NCBI GenBank assembly: GCA_026706565.1
Contig: JAPOYM010000094.1
Span: forward strand, 1 to 38,026
From: a bacterium
GTDB taxonomy: Bacteria; Actinomycetota; Acidimicrobiia; Acidimicrobiales; CATQHL01
Length of the DNA stretch: 38,026 nt
Direction of reading: 5' to 3'
Made by a program: the position numbers and the translations under genes. The notes below the pieces were generated by a model. The model ran no database searches. It saw nothing but the letters and a program-made list of their open reading frames with translations, and was not told the origin of the DNA. Positions 22,850 through 35,034 of this stretch are shown here, in pieces. How positions within the stretch are numbered: the stretch's first letter is position 1; each line of letters starts with the position of its first letter.

Positions 22850-24208
22850 GTGCAGCGGCGCATCTACGGCATCGAGAACGAGTACGGCGTCACCTTCGCC
22901 TTGGGCAGCCAGCGCCGCCTCAGCCCCGACGAAGTAGCGCGCTACCTGTTCCGCCGGGTCGTGTCGTGGGGTCGCAGCAGCAACGTCTTCCTGTCCAACG
23001 GCGCCAGGCTCTACTTGGACGTCGGCTCGCACCCCGAGTACGCCACACCGGAGTGCGACCGCCTCGAGGACCTCGTCGCCCACGACCGCGCCGGCGAGCT
23101 GGTGCTGGACCAGCAGGTCGCCTACGCCCAGGAGCGTCTCAATGCCGACGGCATGCGCGGGGAGATCTACCTCTTCAAGAACAACACCGACTCGGCGGGC
23201 AACTCCTACGGGTGCCACGAGAACTACCTCACCACGCGGCGCGAGGACCTGGCCGAGTACAGCGAAGTGCTCATCCCCTTCCTGGTTACCCGGCAGATCT
23301 ACGCCGGCGCAGGGAAGATCCTGCTGACGCCCCGCGGCGCCAAGTACTGCATCAGCCAGCGGGCGGAGCACATCTGGGAGGGGGTCTCGAGCGCCACGAC
23401 GCGCTCGCGCCCGATCATCAACACCCGCGACGAGCCGCACGCCAACGCGGAGCTGTTCCGCCGGCTGCACGTCATCGTGGGGGACTCCAACATGAGCGAG
23501 TACGCCACCTTCCTGAAGGTCGGCGCCTGCAGCATCCTGCTGCAGATGCTGGAGGAGCCGTCGGTGGTGCTGCGGGACATGACCCTCGAGAACCCCATCC
23601 GAGCCATCCGGGAGATCAGCCACGACCTCACCTGCCGGCGACGCGTGCGGCTAGCCAACGGGCGGCTGCTCAGCGCCTTGGACATCCAGCGCGAGTACTT
23701 CGAGAGGGCGCAGGACTTCTCGACGGGGTTCGACCTGGGCGTCGAGCAGAAGCGCGCCCTGCAGATGTGGGGCCACTGCCTGGAGCGGATCGAGCAGGAC
23801 CCGCTCAGCCTCGACCGGGAGTGCGACTGGGTAATCAAGTACCGGCTGATCGACGCCTACCGCCGGCGCCACGGGACCGCCTGGGAGGATCCGCGGCTGG
23901 CGCTGCTCGACCTCAAGTACCACGACGTGAGCCGCGAGCGGGGGCTGTTCCACAAGATGCAGCAGCGGGACATGGTCGAGTCGATCTGCCTGGAGTCCGA
24001 CGTGGCCGAGGCGATGCACCGGCCGCCCCAGACCACCCGCGCCCGGCTGCGCGGCGAGTTCGTGCGGCGCGCCAAGGAGCGCAAGCGGGACTACACCGTG
24101 GACTGGGTGCATCTGAAGCTGAACGACCAGGCGCAGCGCACCGTGCTGTGCAAGGACCCGTTCCGCTCCCACGATGATCGGGTCGAGAAGCTGATCGCCT
24201 CACTGTGA
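22850..24208 (+). CDS. pafA: Pup-protein ligase
   Basis: A 452-residue enzyme that activates the C-terminal Glu of Pup with ATP and joins it to a target lysine. It is a paralogue of dop in the same operon. The N-terminus reads [14 protein letters not shown]. Asp57 in [15 protein letters not shown] is the expected catalytic aspartate, and the Dop-loop is absent. [19 protein letters not shown] and the C-terminal [16 protein letters not shown] are characteristic. GTG 22850 lies 10 bases after the prcA stop. Confidence 0.95.
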
Positions 24209-24230
24209 GCGGCCGCGGGGAGCAGCAGCG

Positions 24231-26180
24231 GTGACGACCCCGGCGAGCGCCAAGCTGGAGAGGCTCCTGAACCTCACCGCCGCGCTGCTGGCGACCGAGC
24301 GGCTGCTGCCTGCCGCGGAGATCCGCGCCAAGGTGGCCGGCTATGCCGCCGGCAAGGAGGCGTTCCGGCGGACCTTCGAGCGCGACAAGAGCGAACTGCG
24401 CCAGATGGGGATCCCCCTGACTGTCGGCGCGGTGCCCGGCACCGACCCGCCCGTCGAGGGCTACCGGATCCGTCCCCGAGACTACTACCTGGACGATCCC
24501 GGGCTCGAGGCCGACGAGCGCGCCGCCCTGCATCTGGCGGCGCGCGCGGTGCGCCTCGAGGGCGTGTCGCCCGAGACCGCGTTCTGGGCGCTGGGCGGGG
24601 TGAGCCCGGCCGGCGACGAAGGGCCCGAACTCGCGGTGATCCCCTTCGATCAGAACTTAGCGGTGCTCTACCGCGCTGTCTCCGAGCGCAGCGCCGTCAG
24701 CTTCGGCCACCGCGGCGAGCGGCGCAGCGTCGAGCCGGCCCGCCTCCACTTCGCCCGCGGCCACTGGTACCTGGGGGGCTGGGACCGCGACCGCGGCGCC
24801 TGGCGGCACTTCCGCCTCGACCGCATCGGGGACCTCACGGTCGGGCCGCCGGGGACCTTCGAGCCGGCGGGCGCCCCCGCCGACGACCTGGAGCGGCCCC
24901 CCTGGGAGATCGGCGACGGCACGGGGGTGGCGCAGCTCACGGTGGACGCCGAGGTGGCCGACTGGGCGCTGGCGCAGACCGCCGGGGGTCTGCGCCACGA
25001 GCGGCGTCCGGACCGCTCGGTCTGCTTGGAGGTGTCCGTCGCCAACCCCGGCGCGCTCGTGGACTTCGTGCTCGGCCTGCTGGAACACGCCGAGCTCCTC
25101 GGCCCGCCGGAGCTGCGGGCCGAGCTCCTCCGGCGGCTCCGCGCCTGCGCCGCCGGCGGCGCGGCGGCGCCCATCGAGGGCCCCGGCCCCTGCGAGCGGA
25201 CCGTCGGGGACGCCCCGCGGCCCGCCGCAGACGCCGGAGGCGCACAGCGCGCCCTCACGTCGGCCGACCGGATGCAGCGGCTCCTGCAGCTCATTCCCTG
25301 GGTGGCCGGCCGCGGCGGCGCCTACCTGGCTGAGATCACCGAACGCTTCGACTATCCCGCAGACGAACTCCTGCCGGACCTGCAGCAGGTGGTCTTCATG
25401 GTGGGCGTCCCGCCGTACACGCCCGACGCCCTGATAGAAGTCGCGGTGGAGGAGAGCTGGGTCCAGATCAGCTTCGCCGACTATTTCGCCAAGCCGCTGC
25501 GGCTCACGCCCCCGCAGGCCGTCACGCTGCTCGTGGCGGCCACGAGCCTGCTCGGCGTCACCGGTGACAGCGCCCTGGCCCGCGGCCTCAGCAAGCTCGC
25601 GCGGGTGCTGGGGGTGAATCCCGCCGAAGCGCTCGAGGTACACCTCGGCGCCGGCGCCGCCGAGACCCTGGCGGTGCTCAGGGAAGGCTGCGAGAGCCGC
25701 ACGGCGACTTCTGTCCGCTACTACAGCTACGACCGCGACGCCGTCTCCGAGCGGGTGATCGAGCCTTACCGCACCTTCGCCCACGACGGGGCCTGGTACG
25801 TGCGGGGCTACTGCCGACTGGCCCGCGGCGAGCGCACCTTCCGGATCGACCGCGTCTCGGCGGCCGAGCTGACCGACGAGCCGTTCACGCCGCCGCCCGA
25901 GCCGCCCCCGGCGGTGGTCTGGGCGCCTTCCCCCGACGCCCCGTGGGTGGAGCTGGCCCTGGCGCCGGCGGCCCACTGGGTGCTCGACTACTACCCGACG
26001 ACCCGGCAGAGCTGGGACGGCGACACCTGCACGGCCCGACTGGAGGTGGGGGGCGTCGCCTGGTTGGAGCGCCTGCTGCTGCGACTCGGCCCGGCCGCGC
26101 GGGTCACTGCCGGAAGCGGAATCCCCGCGGATCCCGCCGGCGCGGCGGCCCGGCGGATCCTCGCCCGCTACGGCGAATAA
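24231..26180 (+). CDS. pafBC: Fused PafB-PafC WYL-domain transcription regulator
   Basis: A 649-residue protein made of two homologous halves, each with an N-terminal winged helix and a WYL domain. The first half starts AKLERLLNLTAALLATERLLP and has its WYL core near ARGHWYLGGWDRDR. The second half begins near residue 345 (ADRMQRLLQLIPWVAGRGG) and has its WYL core near AHDGAWYVRGYCRL. PafBC drives the RecA-independent DNA-damage response in mycobacteria, where the genes are separate; fused forms are known in other actinobacteria. GTG 24231 follows pafA by 22 bases with a GGGGAG site. Confidence 0.92.
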   Translation: MTTPASAKLERLLNLTAALLATERLLPAAEIRAKVAGYAAGKEAFRRTFERDKSELRQMGIPLTVGAVPGTDPPVEGYRIRPRDYYLDDPGLEADERAALHLAARAVRLEGVSPETAFWALGGVSPAGDEGPELAVIPFDQNLAVLYRAVSERSAVSFGHRGERRSVEPARLHFARGHWYLGGWDRDRGAWRHFRLDRIGDLTVGPPGTFEPAGAPADDLERPPWEIGDGTGVAQLTVDAEVADWALAQTAGGLRHERRPDRSVCLEVSVANPGALVDFVLGLLEHAELLGPPELRAELLRRLRACAAGGAAAPIEGPGPCERTVGDAPRPAADAGGAQRALTSADRMQRLLQLIPWVAGRGGAYLAEITERFDYPADELLPDLQQVVFMVGVPPYTPDALIEVAVEESWVQISFADYFAKPLRLTPPQAVTLLVAATSLLGVTGDSALARGLSKLARVLGVNPAEALEVHLGAGAAETLAVLREGCESRTATSVRYYSYDRDAVSERVIEPYRTFAHDGAWYVRGYCRLARGERTFRIDRVSAAELTDEPFTPPPEPPPAVVWAPSPDAPWVELALAPAAHWVLDYYPTTRQSWDGDTCTARLEVGGVAWLERLLLRLGPAARVTAGSGIPADPAGAAARRILARYGE

Positions 26181-28488: not shown

Positions 28489-29324
28489 GCGACCCCGACG
28501 GCCCCGAGGGGCCTTCGAGGGGGCGCATGACACTCATCGAGCACCTCACCGAGCTGCGCCGCCGGCTGATCGTCTCCCTCATCGCCTTGGCCTGCGGCTT
28601 CGTCGCCTGCTGGGTGCTCTACCCGCAGATCCTGGACTTCCTCACGGCGCCGTACTGCGAGGTCGTCCCGCCCGACGCCGAGGGGCTCGACGCCCCCGGG
28701 AGCTGCCGCCTTCTCGTTCTCGACCCCCTCGAGCCGTTCGCCGTGCGCGTCAGCGTGGCCGGCTACGGCGGCGCGGCGCTGGCGATGCCCGTCCTGCTCT
28801 GGCAGGCCTGGCGCTTCGTGACGCCCGCCCTGTACCGGCGCGAGCGCCTCTTCGCCCTGGCGTTCGTGGTTGCGGCCTCGCTGCTGTTCGCCGGCGGCGC
28901 GGCGTTGGCGTTCTGGAGCATCCCGCGCGCCCTCGGCTTCCTAGCGACCGTCGGGGGCGAGGACCTCGTGAGTTTCTTCTCGCCGCGCCGCTACCTCTCG
29001 TTCGTCGTGAAGATGGCGCTCGCCTTCGGCTTGGGCTTCGAGTTCCCGATCGTGCTGATCTTCGGGCAGATCGCAGGCATTGTCCCGACCGCCGCGCTGC
29101 GGCGGGTCCGCCCGTGGGCCGCGGTGGGGATCGTCGTCGTCGGCGCGGTGATCACCCCCACCGGGGACCCCTTCACGCTCTTGGCGCTGTCGGTGCCTAT
29201 GTACGCGTTCTACGAGATATCGATCCTGTTCGGGGTGCTGAGGCGGCGACGCAAGGAGCGCGAGGAGGCCGCAGAGGGCCGCCCGGCTGCCGCGGTCGAG
29301 CCCGGCGCGGGCGGCCTCCGGTGA
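28485..29324 (+). CDS. tatC: Sec-independent protein translocase TatC
   Basis: A 279-residue inner-membrane protein with six helices that binds twin-arginine signal peptides. It has the hallmark MTLIEHLTELRRRL, then the second-helix region with DPLEPFAVRVSVAGYG, and FGLGFEFPIVLIF with the conserved glutamate. VGAVITPTGDPFTLLALSVPMY is typical. A short first periplasmic loop contains two Cys, which could form a disulfide. ATG 28485 overlaps the tatA stop (ATGA), and its own stop overlaps the helY GTG (GTGA). Confidence 0.95.
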   Translation: MSDPDGPEGPSRGRMTLIEHLTELRRRLIVSLIALACGFVACWVLYPQILDFLTAPYCEVVPPDAEGLDAPGSCRLLVLDPLEPFAVRVSVAGYGGAALAMPVLLWQAWRFVTPALYRRERLFALAFVVAASLLFAGGAALAFWSIPRALGFLATVGGEDLVSFFSPRRYLSFVVKMALAFGLGFEFPIVLIFGQIAGIVPTAALRRVRPWAAVGIVVVGAVITPTGDPFTLLALSVPMYAFYEISILFGVLRRRRKEREEAAEGRPAAAVEPGAGGLR

Positions 29325-31486
29325 CCGCGCCCGAAGCCGTGGAGCCGCCGAGCGCCTACCCGTTCGAGCTGGACCGCTTCCAGAGCGAGGCGATCGCCGC
29401 GATCGACGGGGGCGCCTCGGTGATCGTCGCCGCGCCCACGGGCGCGGGCAAGACCGTCGCGGCCCTCCACGCCGTGCGCGCCGCGCTCGCCGAGGGGCGG
29501 CGGGTCTTCTACACGGCGCCCATCAAGGCGCTGTCCAACCAGAAGTACACCGATCTGGTCCTCGAGCACGGCCCCGAGGCGGTCGGACTCCTCACCGGCG
29601 ACAACGCCATCAACCCTGAGGCCCCCGTGGTGGTGATGACCACCGAGGTGCTGCGCAACATGATCTACGCCGACTCGCCCGACCTGCGCCGTCTGGGCTG
29701 GGTCGTCCTAGACGAGGTGCACTACCTGCAGGACCCCTACCGCGGCCCGGTCTGGGAGGAGATCATCATCCACGCGCCGCCGGCGGTGCGGTTCGTGTGC
29801 CTCTCGGCCACCGTCTCCAACGTGGCCGAGATCCGTTCGTGGATCGCCGAACTGCGGGGCCCCGTGCAGGCCGTCACCGAGACCGAGCGGCCGGTGCGCC
29901 TCGACAGCCTGCTGTGCTTCGGGGACGGCGAGCGGGCGAGGCTGCGATTCATGCCGGTGCTCGTCGGCGGTCGCCCCAACCCCGAGGGGGAGCGCCTCGA
30001 CGGTGACCGTCGGGCGCGCCGGGGCGGGCGCGCCGGGGGGCGACGCTGGCGCGCCCCCGACCGAGAGGCTGTCATCGAGGCGCTGTCGCGTCGCCGCATG
30101 CTGCCGGCGATCTACTTCATCTTCAGCCGGGCGGCCTGCGACGACGCCGCCCGGCTGGCGGCCCGGGCGTCCCTGGAACTCACGACGCCCGCCGAGCGCC
30201 GACAGATCGCCGAGGTCGTCGAGCCCTATGCGGCGCCCCTGGGTCGCAACGACCGACGCGCCGTGGGTTACGAGGCCTGGCTGGCGCAGCTCTCCAACGG
30301 GGTCGCCGCGCACCACGCCGGCATGCTGGCGCCCTTCAAGGAGGCCATCGAGGCGTGCTTCGTCCGCGGCCTCATCAAGGTGGTCTTCGCAACCGAGACC
30401 CTGTCGCTGGGTCTCAACATGCCGGCCCGCACCGTGGTGATCGAGAAGCTCACGAAGTTCTCCGGCGACGGCCACGAGCTGCTCACGCCGTCGGCCTACA
30501 CGCAGCTCACCGGGCGCGCGGGTCGCCGGGGCATCGACGACCAGGGATACGCCGTGGTGCTGTGGCGCCCCCGCCTGCGGTTCGGCGACGTGGCGGGGCT
30601 AGTGAGCAACCGGACCTTCACCCTCGTCTCGGCCTTCGGGCCCACCTACAACATGGTGGTGAACCTGATCGGGCGGTTGCCGCCGGAAGAGGCGCGGAGC
30701 GTGCTCGGGCGGTCCTTGGCGCAGTACCAGTCCGACCGCGAGGTGGTCGTACTGGAACGACAGATCGCCGAGGCTCGCAGGGTGCTGGCCGAGGCCAACG
30801 CCGCGGCCCGCCGCAAGGGCGGCCACGAGGCGCAGCGGCGGCTCCGGCGCGCGGCGCGCAACCTGGAGGATCTCACCCACAGGCTGAGAAGCAAGAAGGA
30901 CACGCTGGCCGGCGAGTTCGACGAGCTCACCGAAGTCCTGCGCCGGCGCGGCCACCTCGACGGCTGGAAGCTCGCTGACAGCGGCGAGCGCCTCGCCGGC
31001 ATCTACCACGAACGCGACCTCCTCATCACCGAGGCGGTAGTGGGCGGGCACTTCGACGGCATCGACGCGCCGTCGTTCGCGGCGCTCCTGGCGTGCTGCA
31101 CCTACGAGCGCCGCGGCGGCGAGCTCCCCAGCGAGCCGCGCTGGCCGACCGCCGCGCTGCGCGGCGGCTGGGCCCGCCTGAGCGAGCTGTACGACTCGCT
31201 CGCCGCGGTCGAGACGGCGTGCCTCGGTCGTGCGCGCAACCCTCCCCCGGACGGGGGTTTCGCCCCGGCGGCCTACGCCTGGGCGGCGGGCGCCGCGCTG
31301 GGGGGCGTACTCGAGGGCGACTTCGCCCCGGGCGACTTCGTGCGGAACGTCAAGCTGGTCTGCGACTTGGCGCGCCAGGTCGGCCGTGCAGCGCCGCAGC
31401 CGGCCACCTCGGCGACCGCACGGGAGGTCGCGGCGGGGATGTTCCGCGGCGTGGTGGCCGCCTCCGCGCTCGACGCGGCGGGCTGA
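29321..31486 (+). CDS. helY: Ski2/Mtr4-like DEVH-box helicase
   Basis: A 721-residue RNA or nucleic-acid helicase. The Walker A motif APTGAGKT is at residues 38-45, APIKALSNQKY follows as motif Ia, the DEVH box is at 131-134 and SAT is motif III. The second RecA domain has VVFATETLSLGLNMPA and QLTGRAGRRGID. The C-terminal part holds a DSHCT-like domain ending FVRNVKLVCDLARQVG. It is about 180 residues shorter than mycobacterial HelY (906), through a reduced middle and C-terminal insert. GTG 29321 overlaps tatC. The tatA-tatC-helY order is common in actinobacteria. Confidence 0.93.
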   Translation: MTAPEAVEPPSAYPFELDRFQSEAIAAIDGGASVIVAAPTGAGKTVAALHAVRAALAEGRRVFYTAPIKALSNQKYTDLVLEHGPEAVGLLTGDNAINPEAPVVVMTTEVLRNMIYADSPDLRRLGWVVLDEVHYLQDPYRGPVWEEIIIHAPPAVRFVCLSATVSNVAEIRSWIAELRGPVQAVTETERPVRLDSLLCFGDGERARLRFMPVLVGGRPNPEGERLDGDRRARRGGRAGGRRWRAPDREAVIEALSRRRMLPAIYFIFSRAACDDAARLAARASLELTTPAERRQIAEVVEPYAAPLGRNDRRAVGYEAWLAQLSNGVAAHHAGMLAPFKEAIEACFVRGLIKVVFATETLSLGLNMPARTVVIEKLTKFSGDGHELLTPSAYTQLTGRAGRRGIDDQGYAVVLWRPRLRFGDVAGLVSNRTFTLVSAFGPTYNMVVNLIGRLPPEEARSVLGRSLAQYQSDREVVVLERQIAEARRVLAEANAAARRKGGHEAQRRLRRAARNLEDLTHRLRSKKDTLAGEFDELTEVLRRRGHLDGWKLADSGERLAGIYHERDLLITEAVVGGHFDGIDAPSFAALLACCTYERRGGELPSEPRWPTAALRGGWARLSELYDSLAAVETACLGRARNPPPDGGFAPAAYAWAAGAALGGVLEGDFAPGDFVRNVKLVCDLARQVGRAAPQPATSATAREVAAGMFRGVVAASALDAAG

Positions 31487-32188: not shown

Positions 32189-33397
32189 GTGGCCCAGAGT
32201 TCGCCCACCGCGGCCGACGCCAAGGCCCGCGCTGCGGCGGCCGTCGAAGCCCGGGCCGAGCAGCTGATCGACATCTCCCACCGCATCCACGAGAACCCCG
32301 AGTTGGGCTTCGAGGAGCATTTCGCGCACGACCTCCTCGCGGGCGCGGCCGAGGAGGCGGGCCTAGCGGTGCAGCGGCAGGCCTACGGACTGGAGACGGC
32401 GTTCGCGGCCCGTGCCGGGAGCAGCGGGCCTCAAGTGGCCATCCTGTGCGAATACGACGCCCTGCCCGGCATCGGACACGCCTGCGGGCACAACATCATC
32501 GCCGCCTCGGGCCTCGGCGCGGGACTCGCGGCGGCCGAGGTCGTAGAGGGTCTGGGCGGGCGCCTGCTGATCCTGGGCACGCCGGCCGAGGAGGGCGGCG
32601 GCGGCAAGGTCCGTCTCATCGACGGGGGCGCCTTCGACGGAGTAGACGCGGCGATCATGCTGCACCCCGCCGGACTGGAGCTCGCGGCTATGCAGACCCT
32701 CGCCGTGCAGCAACTCCGCGCCCGCTACACCGGCAGCGCCGCCCACGCGGCGGCCGCCCCGCAGGCGGGGCGCAACGCCTTGGACGGCGCGGTGCTGGGC
32801 TACATGGCCGCGGCCGCCCTGCGCCAGCACATCGCCCCCGATGAGCGGCTGCACGGCATCTTCACCGACGGAGGCCAGAAGCCCAACATCGTCCCCGCCT
32901 ACGCCGAGACCAACTGGTACGCGCGGTCGCCCACCCGAGCGCAGCTCGAGGCGCTGAAGGAGCGCTTGAGTGCCTGCCTGGCCGGCGGAGCCGCGGCCGC
33001 GGGCGTGGATCTGCAGCTCGACTGGGCCGACTACAGCTTCGCGGAGGTGCGAAGCAACGCGCCGCTCGTCGAGCTCTGGTGCGCCAATGCGGCGACCCTC
33101 GGCCGCCGCCCGCAGCCCCCTGCTCCGGGACGCACCGTGATGGGAAGCACCGACATGGGCAACGTCAGCCAGATAGTGCCCTCGATCCATCCCATGATCG
33201 CGGTGGCGCCCCCGGAGGTGGCCATCCACACCGAGTCCTTCGCTGCCTACGCCCGCAGCGCCAGCGGCGACCGCGGGGTGATCGACGGCGCCAAGACGCT
33301 CGCCGCAGTGGCCATCGACTTCTGGGACGACGAGTCGGTGCGCGCCGCGGCAGCCGCCGACTTCGCCGGCGGCCCGGTCGCCGCCGCGGCGGGCTGA
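32189..33397 (+). CDS. M20-family amidohydrolase/dipeptidase (AbgB/PM20D2-like)
   Basis: A 402-residue zinc metallohydrolase. It begins with DISHRIHENPELGFEE, followed by the metal-binding CEYDALPGIGHACGHNIIAASG and the catalytic glutamates in GTPAEEGGGGK. The dimerisation domain contains YTGSAAHAAAAPQAGRNALD. GSTDMGNVSQIVPSIHPM completes the site. This subgroup includes p-aminobenzoyl-glutamate hydrolase subunits and beta-alanyl-lysine dipeptidase, so an amide of an amino acid is the likely substrate. No signal peptide is present. Confidence 0.85.
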   Translation: MAQSSPTAADAKARAAAAVEARAEQLIDISHRIHENPELGFEEHFAHDLLAGAAEEAGLAVQRQAYGLETAFAARAGSSGPQVAILCEYDALPGIGHACGHNIIAASGLGAGLAAAEVVEGLGGRLLILGTPAEEGGGGKVRLIDGGAFDGVDAAIMLHPAGLELAAMQTLAVQQLRARYTGSAAHAAAAPQAGRNALDGAVLGYMAAAALRQHIAPDERLHGIFTDGGQKPNIVPAYAETNWYARSPTRAQLEALKERLSACLAGGAAAAGVDLQLDWADYSFAEVRSNAPLVELWCANAATLGRRPQPPAPGRTVMGSTDMGNVSQIVPSIHPMIAVAPPEVAIHTESFAAYARSASGDRGVIDGAKTLAAVAIDFWDDESVRAAAAADFAGGPVAAAAG

Positions 33398-33429: not shown

Positions 33430-35034
33430 ATGTACGTCGCAGAGAACTTCACAGACGCCGAGGGCGACATCCTGCGGCGCTACTTCACGAACCTCGACCA
33501 GCCCACCTTCGCCCTCGTGAACCTCCCCGAGGTGGTCAAGGGCGCGCTCTTCGCCCGCTACTCGCGGTCGGCCAAGAGCCTGCGGCGCCTGTTCCTCGAC
33601 GAGTTCGTCGGCGAGCTCGACGTCAGCGGCGACCTCGGGGTGGACGCCACCATCGGCCTGCGGCGCGCCGAGGACCTCTACGACAGAGTGTTCTTCGAGT
33701 ACGGCGACGATTCGGTCGCCCAACTCGGCGGCGTACACCTCGCCTGCGAGCAGTCCTCCAACCTGCTCACCAAGGTGCTCGAGTGGGGCAGGCTCATGTC
33801 CTACCTCGAGCAGTCCACGCGCTACGTGGCCTACGACGCGCGCCTCGGCGGCCGCTACCGGTACTACCGCGACCCGCACATCCTGCGCTCGCCGCACGGG
33901 ACGCGTTACGTGGCGGACCTCGACTGCATGTTCGAGTCCTACAGCTCGGCCCTTCCGGTCATGAACGAGCACTTCCGCCGGCTGTTCCCGAAGTCGCCCG
34001 GCGATTCGGACTTCGCCCACCGGCAGGCCGTCCGGGCCAAGTCGTTCGACGCGGTCCGCGGGATGCTGCCGGCAGCCTCGCTCTCCAACGTGGGCATCTA
34101 CGGCAGCGGGCAGGGCTACGAGAACCTGCTGCTGCGCATGCGGGCGCACCCCCTGCCCGAAGTCCGGAGTTACGCGGACATGATGTTGACCGAGCTGCGC
34201 AAGGTCATCCCGTCGTTCCTCAAACGCGTGGACATCGAGGACAGGGGAGTGGCCTGGAGCCGCTACCTGCGCACGACGCAGGAAGCCATGGGAGAGCTGG
34301 CCGAGAGCCTCTTCGACGGGGCCGGCGACACCTCGGCGGCGCCGGCCGTGCAACTCGTGGACTTCGACCCTCAGGCCGAGGTCAAAGTGGTGGCCGGCGC
34401 TCTCTATGACCATGTGGGCCTCCCGGAGGGGGAGCTGCGCGCCCGCGCGCGGGCCATGTCTGCCGAGGATCGTCTGAGAGTGCTGCGCACCTACGCCGGC
34501 GAGCGCGGCAACAGGCGCCACAAGCCGGGGCGCGCCCTAGAGTCGCCGTGCTACCGGTTCGAGGTGCTGTGCGACTACGGCGCCTTCCGCGACCTGCAGC
34601 GCCACCGGATGCTGACGATCCAATGGCAGCCGCTCTCAGTGGCCCACGGCTACAGCATGCCCGAGGCAGTCGAAGCGGCGGGCCTCGCGGGACTCTTCGA
34701 CGAGACGATGGCTCGCAGCGCAGACCTCCACGAAACGCTGGCGCCCAGATTCCCCGTCGGGGCCGCCTACGCCGTGACGCTGGCGCACCGCATCCGGTTC
34801 GTCATGCAGATGAACGCCCGCGAGGCCATGCACCTCATCGAGCTGCGCAGCGGCACGCAGGGCCACCCGGCCTACCGTCACGTGGCCCAGGAGATGCACC
34901 GTCTCATCGAGACCGCCGCGGGGCACCGCGCCATCGCGGGGATGATGAGTTTCGCCGACCGCTCCAGCGAGCCCGAACTGGAGCGGCTCGCCTCCGAACG
35001 CCGCGCCGCCACACGCCGCCGCAACGCCGTCTAG
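33430..35034 (+). CDS. Tandem ThyX-like protein (two flavin-dependent thymidylate synthase domains)
   Basis: A 534-residue protein made of two ThyX-like halves. ThyX makes dTMP from dUMP with FAD and methylenetetrahydrofolate and normally has about 220-250 residues and one RHRxxSxNExSxRY motif. In the first half the motif reads WGRLMSYLEQSTRY (residues 119-132), keeping the second half of the motif but not RHR. In the second half, RHR is kept at 391-393 (LQRHRMLTIQWQPLS) but the rest is lost. The second half ends with AREAMHLIELRSGTQGHPAYRHVAQEM, typical of the ThyX C-terminus. Long COG1351 proteins exist, but their activity is unclear to me. Confidence 0.8.
   Translation: MYVAENFTDAEGDILRRYFTNLDQPTFALVNLPEVVKGALFARYSRSAKSLRRLFLDEFVGELDVSGDLGVDATIGLRRAEDLYDRVFFEYGDDSVAQLGGVHLACEQSSNLLTKVLEWGRLMSYLEQSTRYVAYDARLGGRYRYYRDPHILRSPHGTRYVADLDCMFESYSSALPVMNEHFRRLFPKSPGDSDFAHRQAVRAKSFDAVRGMLPAASLSNVGIYGSGQGYENLLLRMRAHPLPEVRSYADMMLTELRKVIPSFLKRVDIEDRGVAWSRYLRTTQEAMGELAESLFDGAGDTSAAPAVQLVDFDPQAEVKVVAGALYDHVGLPEGELRARARAMSAEDRLRVLRTYAGERGNRRHKPGRALESPCYRFEVLCDYGAFRDLQRHRMLTIQWQPLSVAHGYSMPEAVEAAGLAGLFDETMARSADLHETLAPRFPVGAAYAVTLAHRIRFVMQMNAREAMHLIELRSGTQGHPAYRHVAQEMHRLIETAAGHRAIAGMMSFADRSSEPELERLASERRAATRRRNAV

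Follow-up and report, generated by a model that had tools for sequence, protein, structure and literature searches.

The window, by which we mean the whole stretch of 38,026 nucleotides analyzed here, comes from a MAG of the class Acidimicrobiia and carries a gene for a tandem ThyX-like protein of 534 amino acid residues, the reading frame of which runs unbroken from ATG to stop (Table 1). The automatic open reading frame call for this gene begins further upstream, at a GTG at position 33079; the ATG was taken as the start because it is the one supported by the family alignment and the orthologues. A gene encoding an M20 amidohydrolase ends 32 bases upstream of the tandem thyX and neighbors it in 57 of 99 loci. 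This amidohydrolase is a probable operon partner; its substrate might be a folate breakdown product, or it may have nothing to do with the tandem gene. Elsewhere in the window, positions 22850 to 26177 encode the Pup ligase PafA (22850-24205) followed by a 649-residue protein that combines two WYL stretches with a PafC HTH, apparently a PafB-PafC fusion, and positions 29114 to 31486 encode a helicase closest to archaeal Hel308-type helicases, with scores well under the equivalog cut-offs. A prophage or phage origin of the tandem gene was considered and rejected in view of its housekeeping neighbors (PafA and a signal peptidase) and of its order-wide orthologues.

Table 1. The tandem thyX locus, its upstream neighbor and the motif positions of the two halves (Tm, T. 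maritima TM0449; Mtb, M. tuberculosis ThyX).
Feature	Position	Strand	Evidence
M20 amidohydrolase	32189..33397	+	TIGR01891, 207 bits (cut-off 153.75)
Tandem ThyX, proposed FAD-dependent thymidylate synthase	33430..35034	+	Translation; two PF02511 matches; order-wide full-length orthologues
N-terminal ThyX domain (aa 1-302), substrate-loop half	33430..34335	+	Pfam match; fold match of the domain alone
D93-D94-S95, equivalent of the GHxS helix (Tm His53/Thr55, Mtb His69/Ser71)	33706..33714	+	Alignment
W119-G120-R121, degenerate RHR of the N-half	33784..33792	+	Translation; alignment
E127-Q128-S129-T130-R131-Y132, substrate loop (Tm E86, S88, R90, Y91)	33808..33825	+	E, S, R and Y in 103/103
R210, equivalent of Tm Arg147	34057..34059	+	103/103; C-half position not conserved
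C-terminal ThyX domain (aa 303-534), flavin-phosphate half	34336..35031	+	Pfam match; structure match
R391-H392-R393, predicted flavin-binding RHR of the C-half	34600..34608	+	R 103/103, H 103/103, R393 101/103
N462-A463-R464, equivalent of Tm N163-A-R165	34813..34821	+	Alignment
R473, equivalent of Tm Arg174 (dUMP activation)	34846..34848	+	103/103

Two matches to the Pfam family Thy1 (PF02511) account for a total of 103.4 bits against a cut-off of 24.8, and the N- and C-halves each exceed the gathering score separately. Thy1 was the sole domain matched in the protein, from which the ThyA domain Thymidylat_synt (PF00303) is absent. The score obtained with the NCBIfam ThyX equivalog TIGR02170 (39 bits) falls below the cut-off of 87.9, and the protein is therefore named here a duplicated variant of ThyX and not a canonical one. 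A search of PDB sequences with the full protein returned chance matches only. The translation and the two PF02511 matches bear out the preliminary description of this gene as a tandem ThyX-like protein with a split signature motif, in its coordinates as well as in its letters.

ThyX methylates dUMP with methylene-tetrahydrofolate, FAD and NADPH, and the ordinary enzyme forms a symmetric homotetramer, in which four equivalent FAD sites lie where three subunits meet. In the M. tuberculosis ThyX, the RHR motif of subunit A (residues 95-97) holds the FAD of this subunit together with Ser71 and Arg190 of subunit B, while dUMP is bound by Arg95 and Arg199 in A as well as Arg87, Ser105 and Arg107 in subunit C, whose Tyr108 forms a lid over the nucleotide (PMC6514825). 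Residue numbering was converted by alignment to the M. tuberculosis and TM0449 chains, and the M. tuberculosis active-site residues map in this way to R78-H79-R80, R165, R174, S88, R90 and Y91 of the T. maritima enzyme. Roles in methyl transfer or dUMP activation have been assigned to S88, R90, Y91 and R174 of the latter (PMC8316439), and roles in flavin/folate gating to H53, Y91 and S88 (PMC11940539).

We aligned 103 tandem proteins, 98 close family members and five distant ones, originating from Acidimicrobiia, other Actinomycetota, Chloroflexota, phages and plasmids. Without exception (103/103), the equivalents of E86, S88, R90, Y91 and R147 were found in the N-half and those of R78, H79 and R174 in the C-half, and not one of the 103 proteins had both parts of the motif, RHR and ExSxRY, intact in one half. 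This partition is far beyond chance. When the halves are pooled, each chain holds one set of the catalytic-motif residues R78, H79, R80, S88, R90, Y91 and R174. Since published ThyX structures place RHR and Arg174 on one subunit of a given site and Ser88, Arg90 and Tyr91 on another, the split tracks a natural subunit boundary: upon subunit mapping, the C-half holds the residues of the A role (R391, H392, R393 and R473) and lacks those of the C role, and the N-half the reverse. Judging from these sequences, neither half seems able to function by itself. That the N-half combines WGR with EQSTRY and the C-half retains RHR without ExSxRY had been described correctly beforehand; the accompanying statement that the C-half had lost the rest calls for a correction, as the ThyX residues N462, R464 and R473 are retained.

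Among the 98 close members, the degenerate RHR of the N-half shows Trp 77 times and Arg 21 times at the position equivalent to R78 (residue 119), and Gly 97 times and Pro once at that equivalent to H79 (residue 120). The intact RHR of the C-half is followed by MLTIQWQPLS, and its last Arg is replaced by Asn in two of the 103 proteins, from Bacillus and Paenibacillus. The Ser of the GHxS helix (S95) is kept in all 103 tandems, and the His of this motif, retained in the five distant tandems, has changed to Asp in the main family. R236, near the R174 position, is conserved in the N-half of the close family and not in that of the distant tandems. Certain contacts of canonical ThyX are found in neither half, the His53 equivalent being Asp in the main family and the equivalent of M. 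tuberculosis Arg87 being mostly Asn.

The two halves are very divergent, with no significant BLASTP match between them and a profile-profile E-value of 0.005. Such divergence might be expected had the halves evolved into separate, partly working sites that share nothing, one half acting for instance as an FAD regulator and the other as a dUMP binder. This reading is very improbable given that solved ThyX structures join both residue sets in one cross-subunit site (PMC6514825) and that the joint invariance of both sets throughout 103 proteins fits a single shared site. The earlier proposal that the complementary halves build one composite site is, in contrast, supported, the residues following the published boundary of subunit roles in 103 of 103 tandems.

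A single-chain AlphaFold2 model computed with 66 sequences had a mean pLDDT of 84.3 and a pTM of 0.85, and its residues 303-514 superimposed on T. maritima ThyX with a Z-score of 16.5 and an rmsd of 2.7 Å over 192 residues. Folded alone, the N-half reached a pLDDT of 69.9; its best 44 matches among solved structures were all of the ThyX fold, the top one with a Z-score of 8.0 (164 residues, 4.0 Å). The pLDDT of the N-half loop (residue blocks 111-120 and 121-130) was 47 and 31 when this half was modeled alone versus 81 and 71 with the C-half present, which fits a predicted packing of the C-half against the substrate loop of the N-half.

Within the order, tandem ThyX was found in 58 of 60 genomes, most orthologues being full-length and 52-87% identical, and an alignment of 66 sequences contained more than 100 invariant columns. 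Across the same 60 genomes, thyA and DHFR (folA) were each detected in one, thymidine kinase in 12 and single-domain ThyX in none. Restricting the count to the 44 good-quality genomes gave 42 with the tandem protein, nine with thymidine kinase, and none with thyA, DHFR or single-domain thyX. Two good relatives (G007 and G038) yielded no thymidylate synthase of any kind. Both cases are probably gaps; G007 was rejected as a synthase-free genome, an assembly gap being likelier because the conserved upstream M20 gene is missing as well. The only genome of the 60 with thyA and folA (G050; loci L023 and L174; G050:C270:11445-12724) has the two genes adjacent to each other and still carries a tandem thyX (52% identity), possibly a replacement under way.

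The same picture emerged from a phylum sample of 149 genomes, 43 of which harbor the tandem gene besides the genome of the window and 36 of which are devoid of any PF02511 protein: thyA was present in one of the 43 tandem genomes, as a 74-residue fragment, versus 34 of the 36 PF02511-free genomes (Fisher p = 8e-19). Loss of folA is known to accompany ThyX, which yields tetrahydrofolate and not dihydrofolate. Tandem ThyX appears to be the sole thymidylate synthase of nearly the whole environmental class Acidimicrobiia, and public annotation labels the tandem proteins 'FAD-dependent thymidylate synthase'. The absence of thyA that had been noted for the window extends to its genome, where a search for thyA (PF00303) or a normal thyX found neither in an assembly that is 75.6% complete.

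This level of completeness, and the degenerate look of each half when read alone, would suit a decaying duplicated ThyX, a pseudoenzyme persisting beside a normal synthase that incomplete assemblies have missed. We hold decay to be extremely improbable, considering the order-wide conservation of the full-length protein, its more than 100 invariant columns and the lack of another synthase in complete-looking genomes. The preliminary description had also entertained a new function, which is unlikely because tandem-bearing genomes lack every other thymidylate synthase, rare exceptions aside. One form of it would have the composite site bind flavin and dUMP for another pyrimidine chemistry, such as hydroxymethylation or the PolB-like methylation of UMP, with thymidylate coming from elsewhere. 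PolB, a UMP/dUMP methylase of the ThyX fold, is indeed among the fold matches, and some distant tandems are phage-borne; against this quite improbable reading stand the low frequency of thymidine kinase (9/44) and the absence of thyA and single-domain thyX (0/44) in the good genomes of the order, as well as the full set of ThyX catalytic-motif residues present once per chain.

Altogether, the tandem protein is very likely to be the FAD-dependent thymidylate synthase of its host, a duplicated and sub-functionalized ThyX with composite sites, whose activity, dimeric state and number of sites we infer. The score below the TIGR02170 cut-off, the contacts absent from both halves and the two relatives in which no synthase was found count against this reading. 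So does Corynebacterium glutamicum, which possesses a ThyX (PDB titles 3ge9/3fnn), as an example of a ThyX fold that does not denote the essential synthase, although this organism depends on thyA. In the mechanism we propose, the C-domain would have specialized in the part of subunit A, and the N-domain in that of subunit C. In the distant tandems, whose N-halves retain the equivalents of H53 (5/5), Ser71 (5/5) and R165 (4/5), the N-domain would double as subunit B, and probably so in the present protein too; the assignment of the B role is less certain in the main family, which has the counterpart of Ser71 in the N-half but that of Arg165 in the C-half, Gln occupying the latter position in the N-half. 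Two chains would then pair into a homodimer, a pseudo-tetramer of domains. Two of its sites would be complete composites, each combining the RHR of a C-domain with the loop of an N-domain, and the other two would be dead, the WGR of an N-domain facing a C-domain devoid of the loop. Each 60-kDa chain is predicted to bind one FAD and one dUMP. By symmetry argument rather than from a computed model, a 222 arrangement in which A and D are C-domains and B and C are N-domains would give two complete and two dead sites, with the remaining two-fold axis relating both chains. A bolder and rather doubtful extension would make the enzyme an obligately asymmetric synthase in which the two dead ancestral sites are reused, e.g., as regulatory nucleotide- or folate-binding pockets; if so, this reuse would account for the strict conservation of G120-R121 and of R464 and H468 in the C-half.

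Related tandems occur in other Actinomycetota, Chloroflexota/Dehalococcoidia, Euzebya, Miltoncostaea, Parabacteroides and plasmids of Bacillus and Paenibacillus, and in Microcystis, Vibrio and Tunturiibacter phages; a scan of viral contigs with the tandem alignment retrieved one relative. The distant tandem of phage Tunturi_5 adjoins a dCMP deaminase gene and that of Euzebya a dCTP deaminase gene, both of which enzymes feed dUMP synthesis. When N-halves, C-halves and single-domain ThyX proteins were placed in one tree, the N-halves formed one clade (SH-aLRT 100) and the C-halves another (100), both apart from single-domain ThyX. This topology is consistent with one ancient duplication that would predate the parting of phages, plasmids and chromosomes, with long branches limiting the inference.

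Genome G008 encodes a second tandem ThyX (L024:1399-2907; 30% identical), the N-half of which has GHxS, Arg87 and NAR but DHR for RHR, and which possibly stands nearer to the ancestral tandem. A plasmid record of Parabacteroides distasonis (L180:2983-4602) carries a main-family tandem with 45% identity and the same split, far from its Actinomycetota and Chloroflexota relatives. The Bacillus and Paenibacillus copies (L168:1402-2988 and L170:1273-2970) are distant tandems located on linear plasmids of 200-230 kb, with RHN for RHR in the C-half. Two further genes (L146:1516-2412 and L147:1431-2291) were considered as naturally split halves and rejected as such; they encode single divergent ThyX-like proteins of ~300 residues in which NTHR..SRNS.SSRA replaces the usual motif, and represent another divergent single-domain ThyX group in Actinomycetota.

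ThyX is an antibacterial drug target. Mutating one subunit's share of an ordinary ThyX site is difficult because three subunits of a symmetric tetramer contribute to it. The tandem protein has these roles divided over two domains of one chain, and each subunit's share in flavin binding, folate access and methyl transfer is therefore open to ordinary mutagenesis. The family illustrates how duplication can lead to the partition of a multi-subunit site that is both essential and symmetric.

In common with TM0449 and the M. tuberculosis ThyX, the tandem protein has the fold, the PF02511 domain and each catalytic-motif residue once per chain, and it replaces thyA and folA. It differs from them in having two domains per chain, RHR and ExSxRY never being both intact in one domain, in the two sites expected per pseudo-tetramer instead of four, and in the change of His53 to Asp in the main family. 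Valas and Bourne remarked in 2009 that most Chloroflexi carry a domain-duplicated ThyX that 'has not been characterized' (PMC3224940). Going by the Chloroflexota members of our set, which share 54-56% identity, these proteins very probably belong to the same family; the paper mentions neither the motif split nor the subunit logic nor the distribution in Actinomycetota and phages. In the open-access literature searched, we found this 2009 remark on tandem ThyX and no description of a complementary motif split. What is new here is the complementary motif split of the already noted duplicated ThyX, with a specific and testable mechanism. The phage proteins gp020 of Microcystis phage Ma-LMM01 and gp50 of Tunturiibacter phage Tunturi_5 share the tandem architecture and the same split but are only ~26% identical, and both retain His53 in the N-half, to which Tunturi_5 adds the Arg165 equivalent. 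The monomeric dUTPase of herpesviruses, a duplicated chain with one active site whose motifs are spread over two pseudo-domains, offers a precedent from the same pathway, although its fold and reaction are unrelated and it is a monomer, whereas a dimer of tandem chains is expected here.
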